This document shows, piece after piece, positions 19,960-42,008 of a stretch of 64,000 bases of DNA. The notes under the pieces were generated by a model. It had not been told where the DNA came from. It worked only from the letters and a program-made list of their open reading frames with translations, and made no database searches. This stretch comes from Desulfobacterales bacterium. GTDB lineage: Bacteria; Desulfobacterota; Desulfobacteria; Desulfobacterales; Desulfosalsimonadaceae. The first letter of the stretch is position 1. The number at the start of each line of letters is the position of its first letter. The stretch covers positions 489,001 to 553,000 of the forward strand of contig JAXHNP010000006.1 of the NCBI GenBank assembly GCA_034520365.1, written 5' to 3'. A program made the position numbers and the translations under genes.

Positions 19960-21354
19960 TTACCCGCTCCGGCTGGATCGGCCGTCCGTCTCGGGTAGAT
20001 CAATTTCTAAAGCCTTGATTTTTCGGAACAGGGTGCTTTTGTGGATGCCCAAATCCCGGGCCGCGGCCTGGCGGTTATAGTTGTTTCGCTCAAGGGCGTC
20101 GATAATGGCCTGGGCCTCCACGGAGCGTTTGGCCGCCTGCATGGTGCCGGTGTCCACCGCGCAGACATCCTGCCGGCCGGGCCGCAAATGCTCGGGCAGA
20201 TGGGCCGGCATGATCATTTCATCCGCGCACAGGATAAAGGCATGCTCAATGATGTTTTCAAGCTCCCGGATGTTTCCGGGATAATCATAGGACATTAACA
20301 CGGCCAGGGCCTCCTGGGAGATACCCGTCACAGCGCGCCCCCGCATTCGGTTCATCCGGGCGATGATCCGCTCGCACAAAAGCGGAATGTCCTCTTTTCG
20401 ATCTCTCAGCGGGGGCAGGGCCAGGGTGACCACGTTGATCCGGTAATACAGGTCCTGCCGAAATCGGCCTTCCGCGACCATCTTTGATAAATCCTGGTGG
20501 GTGGCGGCAAGCACCCGGAGATCGGTGGTATGCGTCTCTGTGGAGCCCAGGGGTTGATAGGTTTTATCCTGGAGCACACGCAAAAGCTTTACCTGGAAGG
20601 CCGGGCTGATATCGCCGATTTCATCCAGAAGGAGGGTGCCGCCATTGGCAGCGGAGAAATGGCCGGGCTTGTCTTTTACCGCGTTGGTGAACGCGCCCGC
20701 TTTATACCCGAAGAGCTCGGATTCCAGCAGGGTATCCGGCAGGGCGCCGCAGTTGATGGCCACAAAGGGCTTGTCCTTGCGGTGGCTTTGTTCGTGGATG
20801 GCGCGCGCCAGAAGCTCTTTGCCGGTGCCGGTCTCGCCCCGGATCAGCACGGTGCTGTCGCTTGCCGCAACCTGGGGGATCAGGGCGAAAATTTTTTGCA
20901 TCCCCGGACTCCGGCTTACCATGTCGCCCATCTGGTAGCGGCCGTCCAGTTCTTTTCTCAGCTCCTCCACCTGGCTCACATCCCGGAAGGTTTCCACCCC
21001 GCCGATGACGCTGCCGTTTTCATCCCGAAGGACCGCCGTGGAGACGGTCACCGGGATGCGGCGGCGCTCGTTGTTGATAAAATAGGTGGAGGAGTTGACA
21101 ATCGGGGTGCCCTCGGCCATGGTCCGCCGCAGTGCGCAGGCGGACTCGCACATGTTGGACCGAAACACCTCCCAGCAGTGCTTGCCGATGGCCTCCTCCC
21201 GGGGGACCCCGGTGATTTCCTCGGCCGCCCGGTTAAAGGAGGTTATCCGCCAGTTTTTATCCACGGTAAACACCCCTTCGGAGATGCTCTCCAGAATAAT
21301 CTCCGTGACGTTTGGGGGCAGCTCGGCACGGATTTGATTTTTGATATCAGTCAT
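19960..21354 (-). CDS. PAS-containing sigma-54-dependent activator (GAFTNA variant)
   Basis: From the ATG at 21354 this protein has 464 residues. Alternatives are an ATG at 21441 (extra 29 residues, with AGGAGG only 2 nt away) and one at 21408. The order is: N-terminal PAS domain with three cysteines ('HCWEVFRSNMCESAC'); AAA+ domain with Walker A 'GETGTGKE' and Walker B 'LLLDEIGDI'; and a Fis-type HTH ('NRQAAARDLGIHKSTLFRK'). The sigma-54-contacting loop reads GAFTNA where GAFTGA is usual. It activates -24/-12 promoters in response to a signal sensed by PAS, possibly through a metal or Fe-S cofactor held by the cysteines. It lies downstream of a paralogous activator on the same strand. Confidence 0.9.
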   Translation of the reverse strand: MTDIKNQIRAELPPNVTEIILESISEGVFTVDKNWRITSFNRAAEEITGVPREEAIGKHCWEVFRSNMCESACALRRTMAEGTPIVNSSTYFINNERRRIPVTVSTAVLRDENGSVIGGVETFRDVSQVEELRKELDGRYQMGDMVSRSPGMQKIFALIPQVAASDSTVLIRGETGTGKELLARAIHEQSHRKDKPFVAINCGALPDTLLESELFGYKAGAFTNAVKDKPGHFSAANGGTLLLDEIGDISPAFQVKLLRVLQDKTYQPLGSTETHTTDLRVLAATHQDLSKMVAEGRFRQDLYYRINVVTLALPPLRDRKEDIPLLCERIIARMNRMRGRAVTGISQEALAVLMSYDYPGNIRELENIIEHAFILCADEMIMPAHLPEHLRPGRQDVCAVDTGTMQAAKRSVEAQAIIDALERNNYNRQAAARDLGIHKSTLFRKIKALEIDLPETDGRSSRSG

Positions 21355-21521
21355 TGATGACTCCGCTTCAGGGGTTTCGGTATCCCCGAAGCTATTTAAA
21401 TTTGGCATATAAATTGCCTGTACTATTATCGGGCTTGGCATTACCTCCTAACTTGTCACCCTCCGAATCAGCAGATGGACGGGCCGCTGCATGCCCGTTC
21501 ATCTGTTGATTCCACGATGCC

Positions 21522-22919
21522 TTAGGCATTGGGCCCGTCCAAAGGGATATCCCATTTTTTCATATACTTCCATATCGATGTGCGGCTGCGGCCAAGCTGC
21601 CGGGCCACTTCCGCTTTGTTCCAGTCGCATTCATGAAGCAGTTCCAGCAGAAGCGTTTTTGTGATCTTTTGCTGCGGCCGGGGCTTGTAATTCGGCGTTT
21701 CCGCAGGACGGACGGGGTAATATTCCATTTGCCGGATTTCCACGGGCAGATCAAAAATACCGATCTGGTCCCCGCCGGCCAAAACAAAGGCGTGCTCAAT
21801 GGCGTTTTCAAGCTCGCGGACATTGCCCGGCCAGTTGTAATCCATGAGAATCCGCATGGCATCCGGCGACAAATCCTGGATCTGTTTGCCGGTTTTTTTA
21901 TTGAATTTCTGAATGAAGTGCCGGGTCAAAAGCGGTATGTCCTCCCGGCGGTTTCGAAGCGGTGGAAGATAGATGGGGAAGACCTTCAGCCGGTAATACA
22001 GGTCCTCGCGGAAATTGCCGGTCTGGACCAGGCCGTAGAAGTCTTTGTGCGTGGCGGTGATAATGCGGATGTCCACATTTCGCTTCCGGGATTCGCCCAC
22101 CCGCTCGATCTGCTTTTCCTGAATGGCCCGAAGAAGCTTTAACTGGATGAACGGGCTGATATCGCCGATTTCATCCAAAAATATGGTGCCGGTGTCCGCC
22201 TCTTCAAAGCGCCCGAGCCGGTCCCTATGGGCGCCGGTGAACGCGCCCCTGACATGGCCGAATAGCTCGCTTTCCAGCAGGGATTCCGAGAGTGCGCTGC
22301 AGTTGACCGTTACCATGGGGCACTGCCCGCGCTCGCTATTGTAGTGGATGGCGCTGGCCACAAGCTCTTTGCCGGTGCCGGATTCGCCCTGGATCAAGAC
22401 GGTGGCGTCGCTTTTGGCCGCCACCCGGATGGCGTTAAAGATTTCCTGCATGGCGTGGCTTTTGCCGATAATATTGCCGAACTGGTAGACTTCAAGGAGC
22501 TTTCTCTGGGCCTCTTCAACCTTCTGCCGCGCCTGGGTGAGTTCGGTGAGATCGGTAACCGTCTCCACCACACCGATGGGTTGCTCCTGCTGGTTTTTCA
22601 CCACCCGGGCATTTTTGATGATGGAGATGAACCGGCCGTCTCTATGCTGAAGCTGACATTCAGTGGGATCCACCGTCCCCTTTTTGAAAATGCCGCATTC
22701 CGAGATCGTGGACGGGCAGGTCCGGTCAAAGCATTTTGAGAATTTCAGGAGCTGGCAGGACTGGCCGATGGCCTCAGCCGGGGTATAGCCGGTGATCCGC
22801 TCCATGGCCGGATTCCAGGAGGTGATCCGGCCCTCGGTGTCCAGGGTAAACACGCCTTCGGCCATGGAATCGAGCAGGCGCTCTGCAAACCGGTCGCTCC
22901 AAACGCTTTTATTCTGCAT
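21522..22919 (-). CDS. PAS-containing sigma-54-dependent activator
   Basis: This 465-residue protein has a PAS domain (about residues 10-125) with cysteines in '[15 protein letters not shown]' and another in 'SEC'. The AAA+ domain has 'GESGTGKE', the canonical 'GAFTGA' sigma-54 loop and 'IFLDEIGDI'. The C-terminal helix-turn-helix is '[22 protein letters not shown]'-like. It is divergent from the thioredoxin/corrinoid-activator operon. The space between them carries both a candidate sigma-54 promoter and helically phased GTTAC boxes, so this protein is the most likely activator of that operon, and may also control itself. Confidence 0.92.
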
Positions 22920-22944: not shown

Positions 22945-22979
22945 GTTACACTTTGTTACATAACGTTACGAATCGTTAC
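22945..22979. promoter_or_regulatory. four GTTAC boxes at exact 10-bp period, candidate activator-binding array
   Basis: GTTAC occurs at 22945, 22955, 22965 and 22975, each start exactly 10 bp after the last, so all boxes lie on one face of the helix. The third is part of the palindrome TAACGTTA. The array is 26 bp upstream of the start of the sigma-54 activator and about 74 bp upstream of the candidate -24 element of the divergent operon, a normal distance for an enhancer-like site. Confidence 0.6.
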
Positions 22980-23052
22980 CTGTCTTGTCAATCGTTCATT
23001 GATTTTTTTTTACCTTTACCCATGATCCCCGATATATGAGTTTTTATGGAAC

Positions 23053-23068
23053 TGGCATAAATGTTGAA
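23053..23068 (+). promoter_or_regulatory. candidate sigma-54 (-24/-12) promoter
   Basis: TGGCATAAATGTTGAA matches the TGGCAC-N5-TTGCA pattern, with GG and the -12 dinucleotide correctly spaced by 10 nt. The -12 dinucleotide is GA where GC is usual. Transcription would start near 23080, leaving a leader of about 100 nt before the thioredoxin-like gene. The adjacent sigma-54 activator gene supports the call. Confidence 0.5.
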
Positions 23069-23183: not shown

Positions 23184-23513
23184 ATGACAACTGAAACCCT
23201 GAAAAATGAAAGCAGTTTTGATCCGTTAATCGCCGGCGGCATCTGCCTGGCCTGTTTTGAAACCCCCTGGTCAGCGCCGTGCCGGGCTCAGGTGGACATT
23301 CTGGATCGGCTGGACCGCCGCTACGGCAATCGTATCAAGCTGCTGGAGGTAAATATTGATCAGCTTGAGCGTTTAAGGCGCCGCTTTGATGTGCATAGTA
23401 TCCCGACCATGATTTTATTCAATCGCGGCACAGAATGTCATCGGCTGGTGGGGGTGCATCCGGAAGCGGAGCTCTGCAAGGCCATTGATCAAGAGCTGAA
23501 GCGCGGCAGATAG
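23184..23513 (+). CDS. thioredoxin-fold protein with SAPC active site
   Basis: This 109-residue protein has the thioredoxin fold ('FETPWSAPCRAQVDIL', cis-Pro loop 'VHSIPTMILFNRG'). The usual WCGPC is WSAPC, with C33 kept and the nucleophilic first Cys replaced by Ser30. Two other cysteines lie just upstream (C21 and C24, a CxxC in 'GICLACFE'). It therefore cannot run the normal CxxC chemistry at its usual site, though C21/C24 may substitute. It is the first gene of a probable sigma-54-driven operon with the corrinoid activator. Confidence 0.8.
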   Translation: MTTETLKNESSFDPLIAGGICLACFETPWSAPCRAQVDILDRLDRRYGNRIKLLEVNIDQLERLRRRFDVHSIPTMILFNRGTECHRLVGVHPEAELCKAIDQELKRGR

Positions 23514-23555: not shown

Positions 23556-25655
23556 ATGGGTAAGTGCGTGAACCATCCAGAGAGAGAAACCAGCTACAAA
23601 TGCATGAAGCACAATATCTATCTGTGCGATGAATGCATGGCGTGCCGGGACCCGGAACTTTACTGCAAATACCGGAGCGCGTGCCCCATCTGGTTTATGA
23701 ACAAGGGGGCGAAAAGACTCAATGAATCCGATGAAGCGGCCCAAGCTTCCGGCGAATATAGGGTGACATTCCAGCCCGATGACAAGTCGGTTGAGGTCGA
23801 GGCGGGCGAAACTCTGCTGGATGCAGCCCGAAAGGCGGATGTCTACATCAATGCTTCGTGCAACGGCAAGGGCGCATGCGGCAAATGCAAACTGATCATT
23901 GAGTCCGGGGAAATTGAAAAAACAGAGACGGCGCTCCTTTCAGATCGGGAAAAGCAGAAGGGGTATGTGCTGGCCTGTCAGACGCGGGTAAAAGGCCCGG
24001 CGTCTGTGCGCGTGCCGGAAGAGACCATTGAGCGAAAGCTCAAGGTGGCCGGCATGGGCGAGGAGGTGACGAGCAAGCTCCATGGCCTGGTAACGGATAT
24101 CCAGCCCATGCTTGAAAAAATTCCGATGGAGCTGAGTCCGCCCACCCTGGATGATTCGGTGAGTGATCTGGATCGCCTGCGGCGCGGACTTGCGCAGAAA
24201 GGCTTGGATACCAGCCGCCTCAGCATTGGGCTTGAAGTGATGCGGGAGCTGGCAGCCAGCATGCGGAATGAAAACTGGCATGTGACCGCCTCGATTATTC
24301 ACAAATCCTGCTCAAGCGAGGTGGTTGCGGTGGAACCCGGGGATACCAGCCAATCCAGCCTGGGGCTGGCCATTGATATCGGCACCACCACCATTGTCGT
24401 CTATCTGGTGGACATGACCGACGGCCGCATTCTGGCGGCTACCTCCGAGCACAACCGCCAGTCCGCCTGCGGCGATGATGTGATCAACCGCATCGTGTGT
24501 GCGGAGAAAAACGGTGTGAAAAAGCTGAGCACCCTGGCGCTTTCCACCATTAACACCCTGATTAAGGAGGCGGTAGACGGTGTGGGCGCGGATGCCAAAC
24601 AAATCCATAACATCGTGGTTTCCGGCAATACCACCATGACGCATCTTTTGCTTAAAATCGAGCCCCGCTATATCCGGCGTGAGCCATATATCCCGTCGAT
24701 TTCCGAGTTTCCGGTGTTAAAGAGCGGCAATATCGGCTTAAAGGCCAATCCCAATGCCGCGGTATATGTGATGCCGGGGCCGGCCAGCTATGTGGGCGGG
24801 GATATCGTCTCCGGTGTCCTCTATTCAGGGCTCCATAGGGAAGCGGAAATGACCCTGTTCATCGATGTGGGCACCAACGGCGAAATTGTGCTGGGCAATC
24901 AAGACTGGCTGATCTGTGCGTCCTGCTCGGCCGGGCCGGCGTTTGAAGGCGGCGGCATCAGGTGGGGGATGCGGGCTGAGGAAGGCGCCATCGAAGGTGT
25001 GTCAATTGACCGAAATACATTTGAGCCTCAACTGAAAACCATTGGCGGCCATGCGCCCAGAGGGATTTGCGGCTCCGGAATGATTGAGCTTTTATCCGGG
25101 ATGATGCTTACCGGCATTATCGATCAGCGGGGCAAGTTTCAATTGCCGCCGGACCATCCCCGGATGGGGGCGGTCGGTGATGAGCCGGCTTATGTTCTGG
25201 CCTATGCCGATGAGACGCCCATGGAGGAGGATCTGGTCTATACCGAATCGGATATCGACAACCTCCTTCGCTCAAAGGGCGCGGTCTATGCCGGATTCAC
25301 CGTGCTTTTAAACCAGGTGGGGGTGACTTTTGATATGATTGACCGGGTCATTATCACCGGCGGATTCGGCCAGTTCCTGGATATCGGAAAATCGGTGGCC
25401 ATCGGCCTGCTGCCGGACATTGCGCGGGATAAATTCCAATACGATGGCAACAGCAGCATTGGCGGCGCATATATGGCGCTTCTCTCGGATGCGCACCGAA
25501 AAACCGCCAAAGAAATCTGCCATGCCATGACCTATCTGGATTTTTCAACCAACACCAGTTTCATGGACGAGTTTACCTCAGCCCTGTTTCTGCCCCATAC
25601 CAACATGGAGCAGTTTCCCAGTATCATGAAGCGGCTAAAAGAAACGGCCAACTAG
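23556..25655 (+). CDS. corrinoid-protein reductive activator: zinc finger + [2Fe-2S] ferredoxin + ASKHA (DUF4445) domain
   Basis: This 699-residue protein has three parts. Residues 1-45 form a Cys/His-rich B-box-like zinc finger (C4-x2-H7, C16-x2-H19, C24-x2-C27-x2-C30). Residues 68-145 are a plant-type [2Fe-2S] ferredoxin with C102, C108, C111 and C141. From about residue 268 there is an ASKHA ATPase ('AIDIGTTT', 'VVSGNTTMTH', 'IDVGTNGEIV', 'ITGGFGQF') of the RACE/DUF4445 family. Such proteins use ATP to reduce inactive Co(II) corrinoid to Co(I) in methyltransferase systems. No corrinoid protein or methyltransferase is encoded in the window. The zinc-finger extension is additional to the usual layout. 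It has GGAGG 7 nt before the ATG. Confidence 0.9.
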   Translation: MGKCVNHPERETSYKCMKHNIYLCDECMACRDPELYCKYRSACPIWFMNKGAKRLNESDEAAQASGEYRVTFQPDDKSVEVEAGETLLDAARKADVYINASCNGKGACGKCKLIIESGEIEKTETALLSDREKQKGYVLACQTRVKGPASVRVPEETIERKLKVAGMGEEVTSKLHGLVTDIQPMLEKIPMELSPPTLDDSVSDLDRLRRGLAQKGLDTSRLSIGLEVMRELAASMRNENWHVTASIIHKSCSSEVVAVEPGDTSQSSLGLAIDIGTTTIVVYLVDMTDGRILAATSEHNRQSACGDDVINRIVCAEKNGVKKLSTLALSTINTLIKEAVDGVGADAKQIHNIVVSGNTTMTHLLLKIEPRYIRREPYIPSISEFPVLKSGNIGLKANPNAAVYVMPGPASYVGGDIVSGVLYSGLHREAEMTLFIDVGTNGEIVLGNQDWLICASCSAGPAFEGGGIRWGMRAEEGAIEGVSIDRNTFEPQLKTIGGHAPRGICGSGMIELLSGMMLTGIIDQRGKFQLPPDHPRMGAVGDEPAYVLAYADETPMEEDLVYTESDIDNLLRSKGAVYAGFTVLLNQVGVTFDMIDRVIITGGFGQFLDIGKSVAIGLLPDIARDKFQYDGNSSIGGAYMALLSDAHRKTAKEICHAMTYLDFSTNTSFMDEFTSALFLPHTNMEQFPSIMKRLKETAN

Positions 25656-25956: not shown

Positions 25957-27954
25957 TTATTGGTTGCCATCTATTACTTCTCTTACCTTTTTCGACAACT
26001 GGATCAGATTAAAAGGTTTTTGGATAAAACCGCTGCAGCCTTGTCTCATTAGTTCACTGGCCGCCCCGTTTATGCTGTAGCCGCTTGAGAGCAGGACATT
26101 GATGTCCGGGTCGGTCTCTTTTAGGGCCAAAAACGTCTCCCGGCCGCTCATGTTCGGCATGATCATATCCAGAATCACCAGGGCGATCCGGTCTTTATGC
26201 CGGGCATAGGTTTCAATGGCGGCCTGGCCGCTTAGCGCGGTTAAAACCGTGTATCCCAGCTCTTCGAGCATGATCTGCCCGGTTTCCGCGATAATTTTTT
26301 CATCATCCACCACCAGAATGGTCTCAGCGCCTTTGAGCAGGGTGTCGATGACCTCTTTTTCCTCGGCCGGCGCTTTTTGTGTGGCCGGCAGGTAGATGTT
26401 AAACGTGGTGCCCTTGCCGATTTCGCTGTATACGGTGACGTAGCCCGCGTGGTGCTTGACGATGCCATAAACCGAGGAAAGCCCCAGGCCGGTACCCTCG
26501 CCCTGCTGTTTGGTGGTAAAGAAGGGCTCAAATATTTTCTGCTGGATTTCTTCATCCATGCCGATCCCCGTATCTGTGACGGAGATTTTGACATAGCTGC
26601 CGGGCTTTGCCTGAAAGGCGGCCAGCTGGAATTCGCTGAGTGTTATATTTTCGGTCTGGATATATATCTCGCCTTTATCGGACATGGCCTGGCAGGCATT
26701 AACAAAGAGGTTAATCAGCACCTGCTCAATCTGTCCGGGATCCGCCTCCACGGACCATATATCCGGCTCCAGGCGCGTGCGGCAGGTAATTTCTTTGCGG
26801 GTGGAGGAAAGCATTTTGGCGCTCATGCGGATCAGGGGGTTTAAATTCAGGGGTTTGACCTGATACTGGCCGCGCCTGGCAAAGCCCAGCAGTTGATTGC
26901 TTAGTTCAGAGCCGTACTGGATATGGCGTTCAATGGTTTTAAGCTTCTTGTGGTTGGGGTCATCAGGCGGCGTTTTCATTAACATCAGCGACGTATTGCC
27001 CTGGATGGCCATTAACAGATTGTTGAAATTATGGGCAATGCCGCCGGCCAGGGTGCCGATGGCCTCCATTTTTTCAACGTGCTGCAAGTGCTCCTTAAAT
27101 CGCTTTTGCAGGGTAATATCCCGGATAATCCCCTGGTAGCCGTAAATGCTTTCATCTTCCCCCATCCAGAGCGTGGCCGTAATGAGGCAGTCAACGCTGG
27201 TGCCGTCTTTTTTGCGAAACCGCAGGTCATAATCGTGCACCTCGCCTTTGGCTTCGATTTCCTGGATGAATTGGGCCCGTTCCTCCGGGTTTTCGTATAG
27301 GTCCAGGATGTTTAGGCCGATGATTTCCTCCCGGCGGTATCCGAAAAGCTTTTCCCCGGCCGGGTTGATGTCAATAAATTCTCCGGATCTGGCGGTGATG
27401 TAAATGGTGTCGCGGGAATCCTCAAAAAGGGCCCGGTATTTGGCTTCGCTTTTTTCAAGCGCCCGCTGGGCGGCCACCCGGTCCGATATATCCCGGGAAA
27501 CTCCGATTATCCGGGTCATTTCATCGTTTTCATCCATTATAGGCCGGGCGGTGACTTCCACCCATACCGTTGAGCCGTCCTTGCGAAGATATTCCAGCTC
27601 CAGTTTATGAGTTTTTTGGTCGGCCCCTTTTTTGTCTTTAAACTCCCGGCTCGCGGCGGCAAAATATCGGGTCGCATATTCAAATGATTCAGGCGTGATA
27701 ATTTCGGAAAACGGCTTTTTCAGGATCTCTTCCAGGCTATAGCCGAGCATCTGCTCCGCAGACGGGCTTAAGTAATGGAGCGTTAGTTTCTCCGTGGACA
27801 TGATCCATATCATGTCCGGCACATTTTCAACCAGCAGGCGATAGGTCCGGGCGTTTTGTTTGAGGCTGTTGATTTCAGACTGACAGCTCTCAACCTGGGC
27901 TTCCAGCTCTTTTATTCGTTTCTGCGGGGATTCCGGGTTTTTGGGATCAATCAT
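25957..27954 (-). CDS. PAS hybrid sensor histidine kinase with receiver domain
   Basis: This protein has 665 residues from the ATG at 27954, which overlaps the upstream stop as ATGA. An N-terminal coiled coil is followed by two PAS domains (about residues 35-170 and 175-285). Next is a HisKA-type H-box ('GGIAHNFNN', H near 308), then HATPase_c with an N-box ('[10 protein letters not shown]') and G boxes ('TGIGM', 'GTGLGL'). A C-terminal receiver has 'VVDDEK' near 548 and phospho-acceptor Asp in 'LVILDMIMP' near 594. There are no membrane segments, so it is a cytosolic sensor. Its target is unknown, and no response regulator gene is adjacent. It is coupled to the endonuclease III homologue. 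Confidence 0.92.
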
Positions 27955-28622
27955 GGCAAAGACTCCATCGGGCCGCTGCACTGGTCTGCCAGCGGGCACT
28001 GGGCACAGATCGGCTGCCGTTTTTTGCATATCCGGTTGCCCAGATGCACGATCTGGGCATGATAGTCATTGAATAATGCGACGTCTTGGGGAAGCCGGGA
28101 CATGAAAAACGCCTGGTATGCCTGGTAAGACCACCCCGCTTCAGTCAGGCCCAGCCGTTCAAAGATCCGCCGGGTGTAGGCGTCAATGACAAAAATCGGC
28201 TTCTCCGCGGCATAAAGCAGGATGGAATCCACGGTTTCTCCGCCGAAGCCCTTTAATTTGAGCAGGGCCTTTCGGGCCGGGGCAGGGTCTAAACCAAACA
28301 ACGCATCCAAATCCCCGTCAAACTGGTCGAATAACAGGGTGGTGAAATTTTTGAGCCGTTCGGCCTTTTGGTGATAGAACCGGGAAGAGCGGATCAGCGG
28401 AGCCAAATCTGAAGTGTTTGTCTGGTGGATGGCAGAAAGGGACAGGAGACGGTGCTGATTGAGGGCTTCCATGGCTTTGCGCGCGTTTTTCCAGGCCACG
28501 TTCTGGGTTAGTATCGCCCCGATGACCACTTCCTCGGCGGTATCTGCCGGCCACCAGTGCCGGGGGCCGAAGGCGGAGAGCAGTTTTTGATATATGGATT
28601 CCAGGTGCGCGCCGGTTGTCAT
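27951..28622 (-). CDS. endonuclease III-family DNA glycosylase, probably monofunctional
   Basis: This 223-residue HhH-GPD protein has the hairpin 'LKGFGGETVDSIL' (about 123-135), the catalytic Asp D147 ('VIDAYTRR') and a C-terminal [4Fe-4S] cluster motif C199-x6-C206-x2-C209-x5-C215. At the position of the lyase lysine of E. coli Nth (G-x-x-K-T-A) it has Glu. It is therefore probably a monofunctional base-excision glycosylase of the COG2231 type (related to 3-methyladenine glycosylase MagIII), and not a bifunctional AP lyase. The DNA substrate is not evident. Confidence 0.88.
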   Translation of the reverse strand: MTTGAHLESIYQKLLSAFGPRHWWPADTAEEVVIGAILTQNVAWKNARKAMEALNQHRLLSLSAIHQTNTSDLAPLIRSSRFYHQKAERLKNFTTLLFDQFDGDLDALFGLDPAPARKALLKLKGFGGETVDSILLYAAEKPIFVIDAYTRRIFERLGLTEAGWSYQAYQAFFMSRLPQDVALFNDYHAQIVHLGNRICKKRQPICAQCPLADQCSGPMESLP

Positions 28623-41952: not shown

Positions 41953-42008
41953 CCTCAGTGCCTTAGTACCTTAGTGCCTTAGTACCTTAGTGCCTCAGTA
42001 CCTCAGTG
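41953..42008. repeat. 8-bp minisatellite, seven units (CCTYAGTR)
   Basis: Seven consecutive octamers are CCTCAGTG, CCTTAGTA, CCTTAGTG, CCTTAGTA, CCTTAGTG, CCTCAGTA and CCTCAGTG. The last base alternates in the inner units. The array directly follows the regulator stop, in the gap before nifJ. Confidence 0.8.

Follow-up and report, generated by a model that had tools for sequence, protein, structure and literature searches.

Taken as a whole, the observations are best explained by a reading that we consider quite probable, in which four GTTAC boxes in the window (the whole 64,000-nucleotide stretch of DNA analysed here) are the operator of a divergently encoded sigma-54 activator, cover this activator's own predicted promoter, and serve to activate a thioredoxin-RACo operon through sigma-54. 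An earlier note on this DNA proposed that the adjacent activator acts on the array as an enhancer. The part of that proposal concerning binding is strengthened, as the box changes with the recognition helix of the activator and the array and promoter are kept in the genus, such that the activator very probably binds the GTTAC array. The other part needs amending: the array overlaps the predicted promoter of the activator itself and is probably not an enhancer only. The features concerned are the following:

21522 to 22919, minus strand: sigma-54 activator of PAS-AAA+-HTH architecture, 465 aa, with a Cys-rich PAS (Pfam; PAS cysteines in 122 aligned homologues)
21552 to 21656, minus strand: Fis-type HTH of the activator, aa 422-456 (Pfam HTH_8)
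21579 to 21581, minus strand: codon of Thr447, the recognition-helix residue covarying with the box (covariation, tree, sequence)
22945 to 22979, plus strand: putative operator/UAS, four GTTAC boxes at 10-bp steps (sequence, genus conservation, covariation with the activator HTH)
22960 to 22964, minus strand: inverted half-site ATAAC abutting box 3 and forming TAACGTTA (sequence; commonest pair geometry of Thr-type loci)
22963 to 22968, minus strand: predicted -10 hexamer TAACGT, a weak match (3/6), with a 17-bp spacer, inside the array (sequence)
22986 to 22991, minus strand: predicted -35 hexamer TTGACA of the activator's sigma-70-type promoter (sequence; TTGACA in 83/128 array-bearing loci)
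23053 to 23068, plus strand: predicted -24/-12 sigma-54-type promoter TGGCATAAATGTTGAA (sequence; 16 bases identical across the four genomes of the genus)
23184 to 23513, plus strand: thioredoxin-like protein with WSAPC rather than WCxPC, first gene of the target operon (domain match, motif comparison)
23556 to 25655, plus strand: RACo/AcsV-like ASKHA protein with Fer2, second gene of the target operon (RACo domains; NCBIfam AcsV 696 bits, below the cut-off of 800)

The boxes start at positions 22945, 22955, 22965 and 22975, with the exact 10-bp step that had been read from the sequence before. Four-fold repeats of any 5-mer at a constant step of 8 to 14 bp are found in two places in the 64-kb window, one of which is the GTTAC array, and 40 first-order Markov simulations of the window produced none. 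The other place holds an 8-bp tandem repeat (41961-41991) in four copies, with CCTTAGT constant in the unit. Throughout the 4.33-Mb genome, GTTAC-N5-GTTAC-N5-GTTAC has two overlapping matches, both of which are the array at 22945, versus none for the reversed-pattern control. A search of orthologous loci, proposed as a check in the earlier note, found the array kept, in part in degenerate form, in three of three other genomes of the genus (G021, G022 and G023), all of which have a thioredoxin orthologue with the array upstream of it: four GTTAC boxes at 10-bp steps in G022, three GTTAC and one GTTAT in G021 and, in 10-bp phase, GTTAC, a lost position, GTTAT, GTTAC and GTTAC in G023. The activator had no match on the short contig of G023.

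That the divergent gene encodes a sigma-54 activator, as first described, is confirmed by its domains, which comprise a PAS, a sigma-54 activation (AAA+) domain with GAFTGA at aa 225 and a Fis-type HTH (Pfam). All 122 aligned homologues have Cys55, Cys63 and Cys75 of the PAS; Cys88 is kept in 121 and Cys68 in 116. Given these conserved cysteines and the redox targets described below, thiol, metal or iron-sulfur sensing would be the likeliest input. Of 389 genomes sampled from the order, 136 contain a close homologue (E-value of 1e-150 or better). Outside the order such homologues look rare, with matches at 1e-140 in 14 of the 395 genomes of a phylum sample, six of them labelled 'same phylum' and not nearer kin. 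Among solved structures, a single distinct sequence, that of the sigma-54 regulator 7vbs, matched the HTH profile, and the PAS region weakly matched other PAS-containing proteins; on viral contigs, no match to the HTH profile was confirmed. Just downstream of the activator gene (19960-21441) lies a gene for a second PAS-AAA+-HTH sigma-54 activator, whose PAS bears a C-x3-C motif and of which an 85%-identical copy is found 3' of the first activator in G021.

The type of box found upstream of the activator follows a single residue of its recognition helix. This was seen in 150 de-duplicated activator loci (214 activator hits, of which 48 were dropped as duplicates, 10 because their HTH was not readable and six for having less than 80 bp upstream), which combine a part of the order-wide activator matches, picked by eye for spread, with named reference-genome loci. 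Loci with Thr at this position (Ser-Arg-Thr helix, n=111) have GTTAC in 90 cases, GCYAC in two, a tie in one and no called box in 18; those with Ala (Ser-Arg-Ala helix, n=36) have GCYAC (GCTAC or GCCAC) in 35 cases, GTTAC in none and no called box in one. The one locus with Ser after Ser-Arg has a GCYAC box, and the two Ser-Arg-Val activators (L102 and L112) have dense clusters of six and five GTTAA boxes upstream, a third box type. The reference genomes, for instance those of Desulfosarcina widdelii and Desulfobacter vibrioformis (Desulfobacterales), supplied at least 79 named loci, which also include some records labelled Desulfobulbaceae, one labelled Desulfohalobiaceae and one labelled SAR324. 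Twenty-six named-genome loci, scored apart and later merged into the 150 (42 duplicates and seven short loci were dropped from that sample), gave 18 GTTAC, one GCYAC, one tie and five without a called box for Thr, and one GCYAC out of one for Ala. In shuffled upstream regions, two GTTAC boxes were reached in 3.4% and two GCYAC boxes in 6.2%.

The Fisher p of 3e-29 obtained on the Thr and Ala cells of the 150-locus table ignores relatedness and is not independent evidence, because the switches behind it are few (three events, with one supported independent Thr/Ala pair). A tree built without the HTH, in which rows were counted if the body was sufficiently long and the box had been called, places on its branches two Thr/Ala switches and one Thr/Val switch, with the boxes switching each time, and a change from Ala to Ser at which the box stays the same. 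One of the two Thr/Ala switches rests on branches without strong support; independent Thr/Ala pairs number one on supported branches and two on all branches, and the independent-pairs sign test has no power as the switches are too few. As we read the tree, the weight of the covariation lies in the persistence of the matching box after a switch, seen in all 17 members of one Ala/Ser clade and in 19 of the 20 of the other (GCYAC); for GTTAA the same holds in two of two. Counting against the rule are the 18 of 111 Thr-type loci without an upstream box pair, two Thr-type loci with GCYAC pairs (L144 and L195), which is near the chance rate, and the box lying in the -35/-10 spacer of Ala-type loci with TTGACA, which departs from the rule, being GTTAC in 14, GCYAC in seven and neither in eight. 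Since the box type can be read from the HTH, regulon prediction becomes possible for this regulator, and the covariation turns a single odd intergenic array into a candidate protein-DNA recognition code testable with one substitution.

Phasing by one helical turn is a trait of the family and the exact tetramer is not, as follows from the runs of same-strand boxes at 9- to 11-bp steps in the 111 Thr-type loci: runs of at least two boxes occur in 59, of at least three in 20 and of at least four in three, with steps of 10 bp (44), 11 bp (29) and 9 bp (9), and the operon strand carries 49 of the 59 runs. The exact 10-bp tetramer described in the earlier note is not the conserved form, being found in two of the 111 loci, those of the source genome and G022, which belong to one genus; a third tetramer (locus L048) has 9-bp steps. 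GTTAC pairs on the same strand, counted in 70 Thr-type loci, are most frequent at spacings of 10 bp (35) and 11 bp (24) versus a shuffled mean of 0.03 per spacing, with a second peak at 20-22 bp; in these loci no pair arrangement is commoner than TAAC placed directly against GTTA (60 pairs). The dominant geometries, same-strand boxes 10-11 bp apart and inverted halves abutting at 4-5 bp, are thus unlike classical dyads; the operators of dyad-type activators such as NtrC and NorR are inverted repeats whose half-sites lie about one turn apart. GTTAC differs from its own reverse complement in the middle base alone and is therefore nearly symmetric, so that a symmetric dimer could still occupy neighbouring boxes in the manner of a dyad. 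No unique dimer model was obtained for the DNA face occupied per half-site.

The earlier description of a -24/-12 promoter at 23053 deviating in its -12 dinucleotide holds for the match itself and has to be narrowed for the deviation, which concerns one base of the dinucleotide (GC to GA). Within 500 bp of 96 loci (99 records less three with under 200 bp upstream), TGGCAY-N5-[TA]TG is present on the divergent strand in 57 and on the other strand in seven, and 39 have no -24/-12 match over this distance. The -12 base of the 57 is A in 30, T in 14, C in nine and G in four. In the source genome, TGGCAY-N5-TTGMW has 34 sites versus two for the reversed pattern, with C at -12 in 18 and A in 16, the pattern admitting A or C alone, and a genome scan with the stricter TGGCACG-N4-TTG showed no enrichment (eight matches versus six reversed). 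The Desulfovibrio consensus is given as tGGcacg/tTGCt in PMC4641369. As A at -12 is common in genome and family sites alike, the deviation is not peculiar to the promoter at 23053, and the notion of a unique non-canonical promoter was rejected on these counts. By sequence, 116 bp separate the array from the -24/-12 promoter here; in the 65 loci with both elements within 330 bp, the distance from the array centre to the sigma-54 element is 115-284 bp.

The array also overlaps a promoter-like sequence on the minus strand, TTGACA-17-TAACGT, which is absent from the earlier note, as is the ATAAC half-site. An exact TTGACA is found near the activator in 83 of 128 array-bearing loci (45 are without), and in these 83 the best -10 has 4.4 of six matches versus 2.7 in controls; in 75 of them, again by sequence, the region from -35 to about +20 holds two or more boxes. 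The activator's TTGACA keeps a constant distance from the last box in G021, G022 and the source genome. Such an overlap of the array with the predicted activator promoter, shared by many relatives, suggests that the activator represses its own synthesis, and autorepression is likely.

The operon downstream carries the genes that had been ascribed to it, for a thioredoxin-like protein and a corrinoid-reactivating ASKHA protein, the latter with RACo domains and Fer2. The RACo operon contains no gene for a corrinoid protein or methyltransferase, the next gene (25957-28029, minus strand) encoding a histidine kinase. The nearest divergent genes in 99 activator records include one for a thioredoxin in at least 38, a flavin disulfide oxidoreductase in at least 22, RACo in at least 21, an SCO4226-like protein in at least 11, DUF1638 in at least 10 and OsmC in at least eight, all of them lower bounds as contigs are often short and divergent targets alone were counted. 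The claim that the target is specifically a corrinoid operon is therefore too narrow: RACo accounts for fewer of these records than thioredoxin, and the neighbours are mostly thioredoxin and redox genes. The genus thioredoxins (source genome, G021 and G022) have WSAPC and have thus lost the first active-site cysteine, the other 34 of 37 divergent thioredoxins having WCxxC. Pyrrolysine read-through in thioredoxin hits flagged 'TAG' was considered and rejected; in the six examined, TAG ends the thioredoxin gene and a thioredoxin-reductase-like frame comes next.

A possible second array in the source genome, made up of three GTTAC at 11-bp steps and an inverted GTAAC, lies upstream of an octaheme cytochrome gene and is accompanied by TGGCATCCAGCTTGAA, which is of the TGGCAT...TTGAA type and resembles the promoter at 23053. 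Taken alone, the case for this array is weak. Loose pairs in the source genome number seven versus 49 for the reversed pattern, which counts against it, and across 36 family genomes a loose triple pattern has 15 matches, of which 10 fall at activator loci and five elsewhere, versus seven for the reversed pattern. Speaking for the array, seven other family genomes (G008, G010, G012, G013, G027, G028 and G035) have an orthologue of the cytochrome no more than about 5 kb from the activator or its thioredoxin gene. Speaking against it, roughly 500 bp upstream of the orthologue in G021 contain no array; the G023 contig starts 105 bp before the TGGCATGCTACTTGATA site, leaving no room for an array search. 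The cytochrome gene (L266 in G000:C3, start at about 1013) and its orthologues (L267-L275) carry an in-frame TGA at the same spot in 10 of 10, in the context NN[FY]-TGA-V.I.SN, owing to which the product is probably a selenocysteine protein; an octaheme cytochrome of the tetrathionate-reductase family (TIGR04315) is tabulated as a GenBank-annotated selenoprotein in a 2026 review (PMC13188914).

We propose that the Fis-type HTH of the activator encoded at 21522-22919 would read GTTAC, the Ser-Arg-Thr447 stretch of its recognition helix probably contacting the variable box bases, and that several protomers would sit one turn apart on one face of the helix. On binding, the activator would mask the sigma-70-type promoter of its own gene between the spacer and about +12, thereby limiting its own synthesis. 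Upon a signal from the Cys-rich PAS, probably of redox or thiol/metal state, the AAA+ domains would form a ring which, by looping over about 116 bp, may reach the sigma-54 holoenzyme at 23053 and turn on the thioredoxin-RACo operon. The same activator would act on the unlinked octaheme cytochrome gene through the possible second array.

Other readings of the array account for parts of these data. Slippage could create 10-bp units, and the array might then be a chance or mutational tandem repeat without function; this we regard as practically out of the question and have rejected, as the 5-bp spacers differ between boxes while the boxes are conserved, the array is kept in three of three other genus members and recurs as a variant in 128 of 150 loci, the simulations yield no such array and the 4.33-Mb genome holds no second exact triple. 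OmpR/PhoB-type boxes are direct repeats about 10-11 bp apart. The direct repeat, its 10-11-bp step and its strand polarity resemble the sites of such winged-helix response regulators, and the spacer box fails to track the HTH class of the activator, as noted. That the repeats belong to a regulator of this type is nevertheless very unlikely in our view, since each of the three switches in the HTH of the adjacent sigma-54 activator is accompanied by a change of the boxes, and none of the seven neighbouring proteins scanned is of the OmpR/PhoB type.

It could further be argued that the array solely represses the activator's own promoter, the divergent operon being driven by another regulator or a sigma-70 promoter. 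The location of the array over the activator promoter, seen in 75 of the 83 loci that have an exact TTGACA, and the lack of a clear -24/-12 element in 39 of 96 loci would both fit. We find this improbable given the enrichment of the -24/-12 element on the divergent strand (57 versus seven of 96) and its identity across the genus, the boxes of L041 and L050, where activator and thioredoxin are co-oriented and the boxes fall between them, at a distance from the activator promoter, and the possible second array, which precedes an unlinked gene with its own TGGCAT...TTGAA.

The operator reading preferred here, in which the activator both covers its own promoter and activates the operon, invites a generalization that we offer tentatively and think rather unlikely to hold in full: the Cys-rich-PAS sigma-54 activators widespread in Desulfobacterales would not bind as dimers on dyads but line up head to tail on a polar pentamer array, all on one face of the helix; the box would be set by one residue of the recognition helix (Thr for GTTAC, Ala/Ser for GCYAC, Val for GTTAA); and one array would both shut the activator's promoter and seed the ring activating sigma-54 transcription. 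A polar, helically phased operator of this kind would provide a system for asking how activator rings load on DNA.

In autorepressed modules of the NtrC/PspF/XylR type, upstream sites also overlap the activator's own promoter, and the classical sites are dyads. The overlap of site and promoter is thus shared with the present locus, whereas the box type and the recognition-helix switch differ. The sites of NorR are GT-N7-AC dyads, in contrast to the same-strand pentamers one helical turn apart found here. Like the present activator, NorR is a one-component sensor-AAA+-HTH protein with several intergenic sites upstream of a sigma-54 promoter, three enhancer sites between norR and norVW that aid formation of a higher-order oligomer, yet its regulatory domain is a GAF responding to NO (PMC2941729) instead of a Cys-rich PAS. 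DVU2956 of Desulfovibrio vulgaris is likewise a deltaproteobacterial sigma-54 activator, with a gel-shift-tested site of three conserved half-sites; unlike the activator described here, it is presented as having no N-terminal sensor domain in PMC4641369, the text of which gives neither sequence nor spacing of the half-sites. DVU3142, a one-component activator predicted in the same paper (PMC4641369) to control the ohc octaheme cytochrome operon, as proposed here for the second array and several relatives, may be a relative of the present activator. The main texts of PMC4641369 and PMC6615313 mention neither GTTAC nor direct repeats, and no description of this operator was found among the literature matches listed. 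Judged from its sequence, the locus is in outline an ordinary divergent sigma-54 module, set apart by an unusual polar operator and an apparent one-residue specificity switch.
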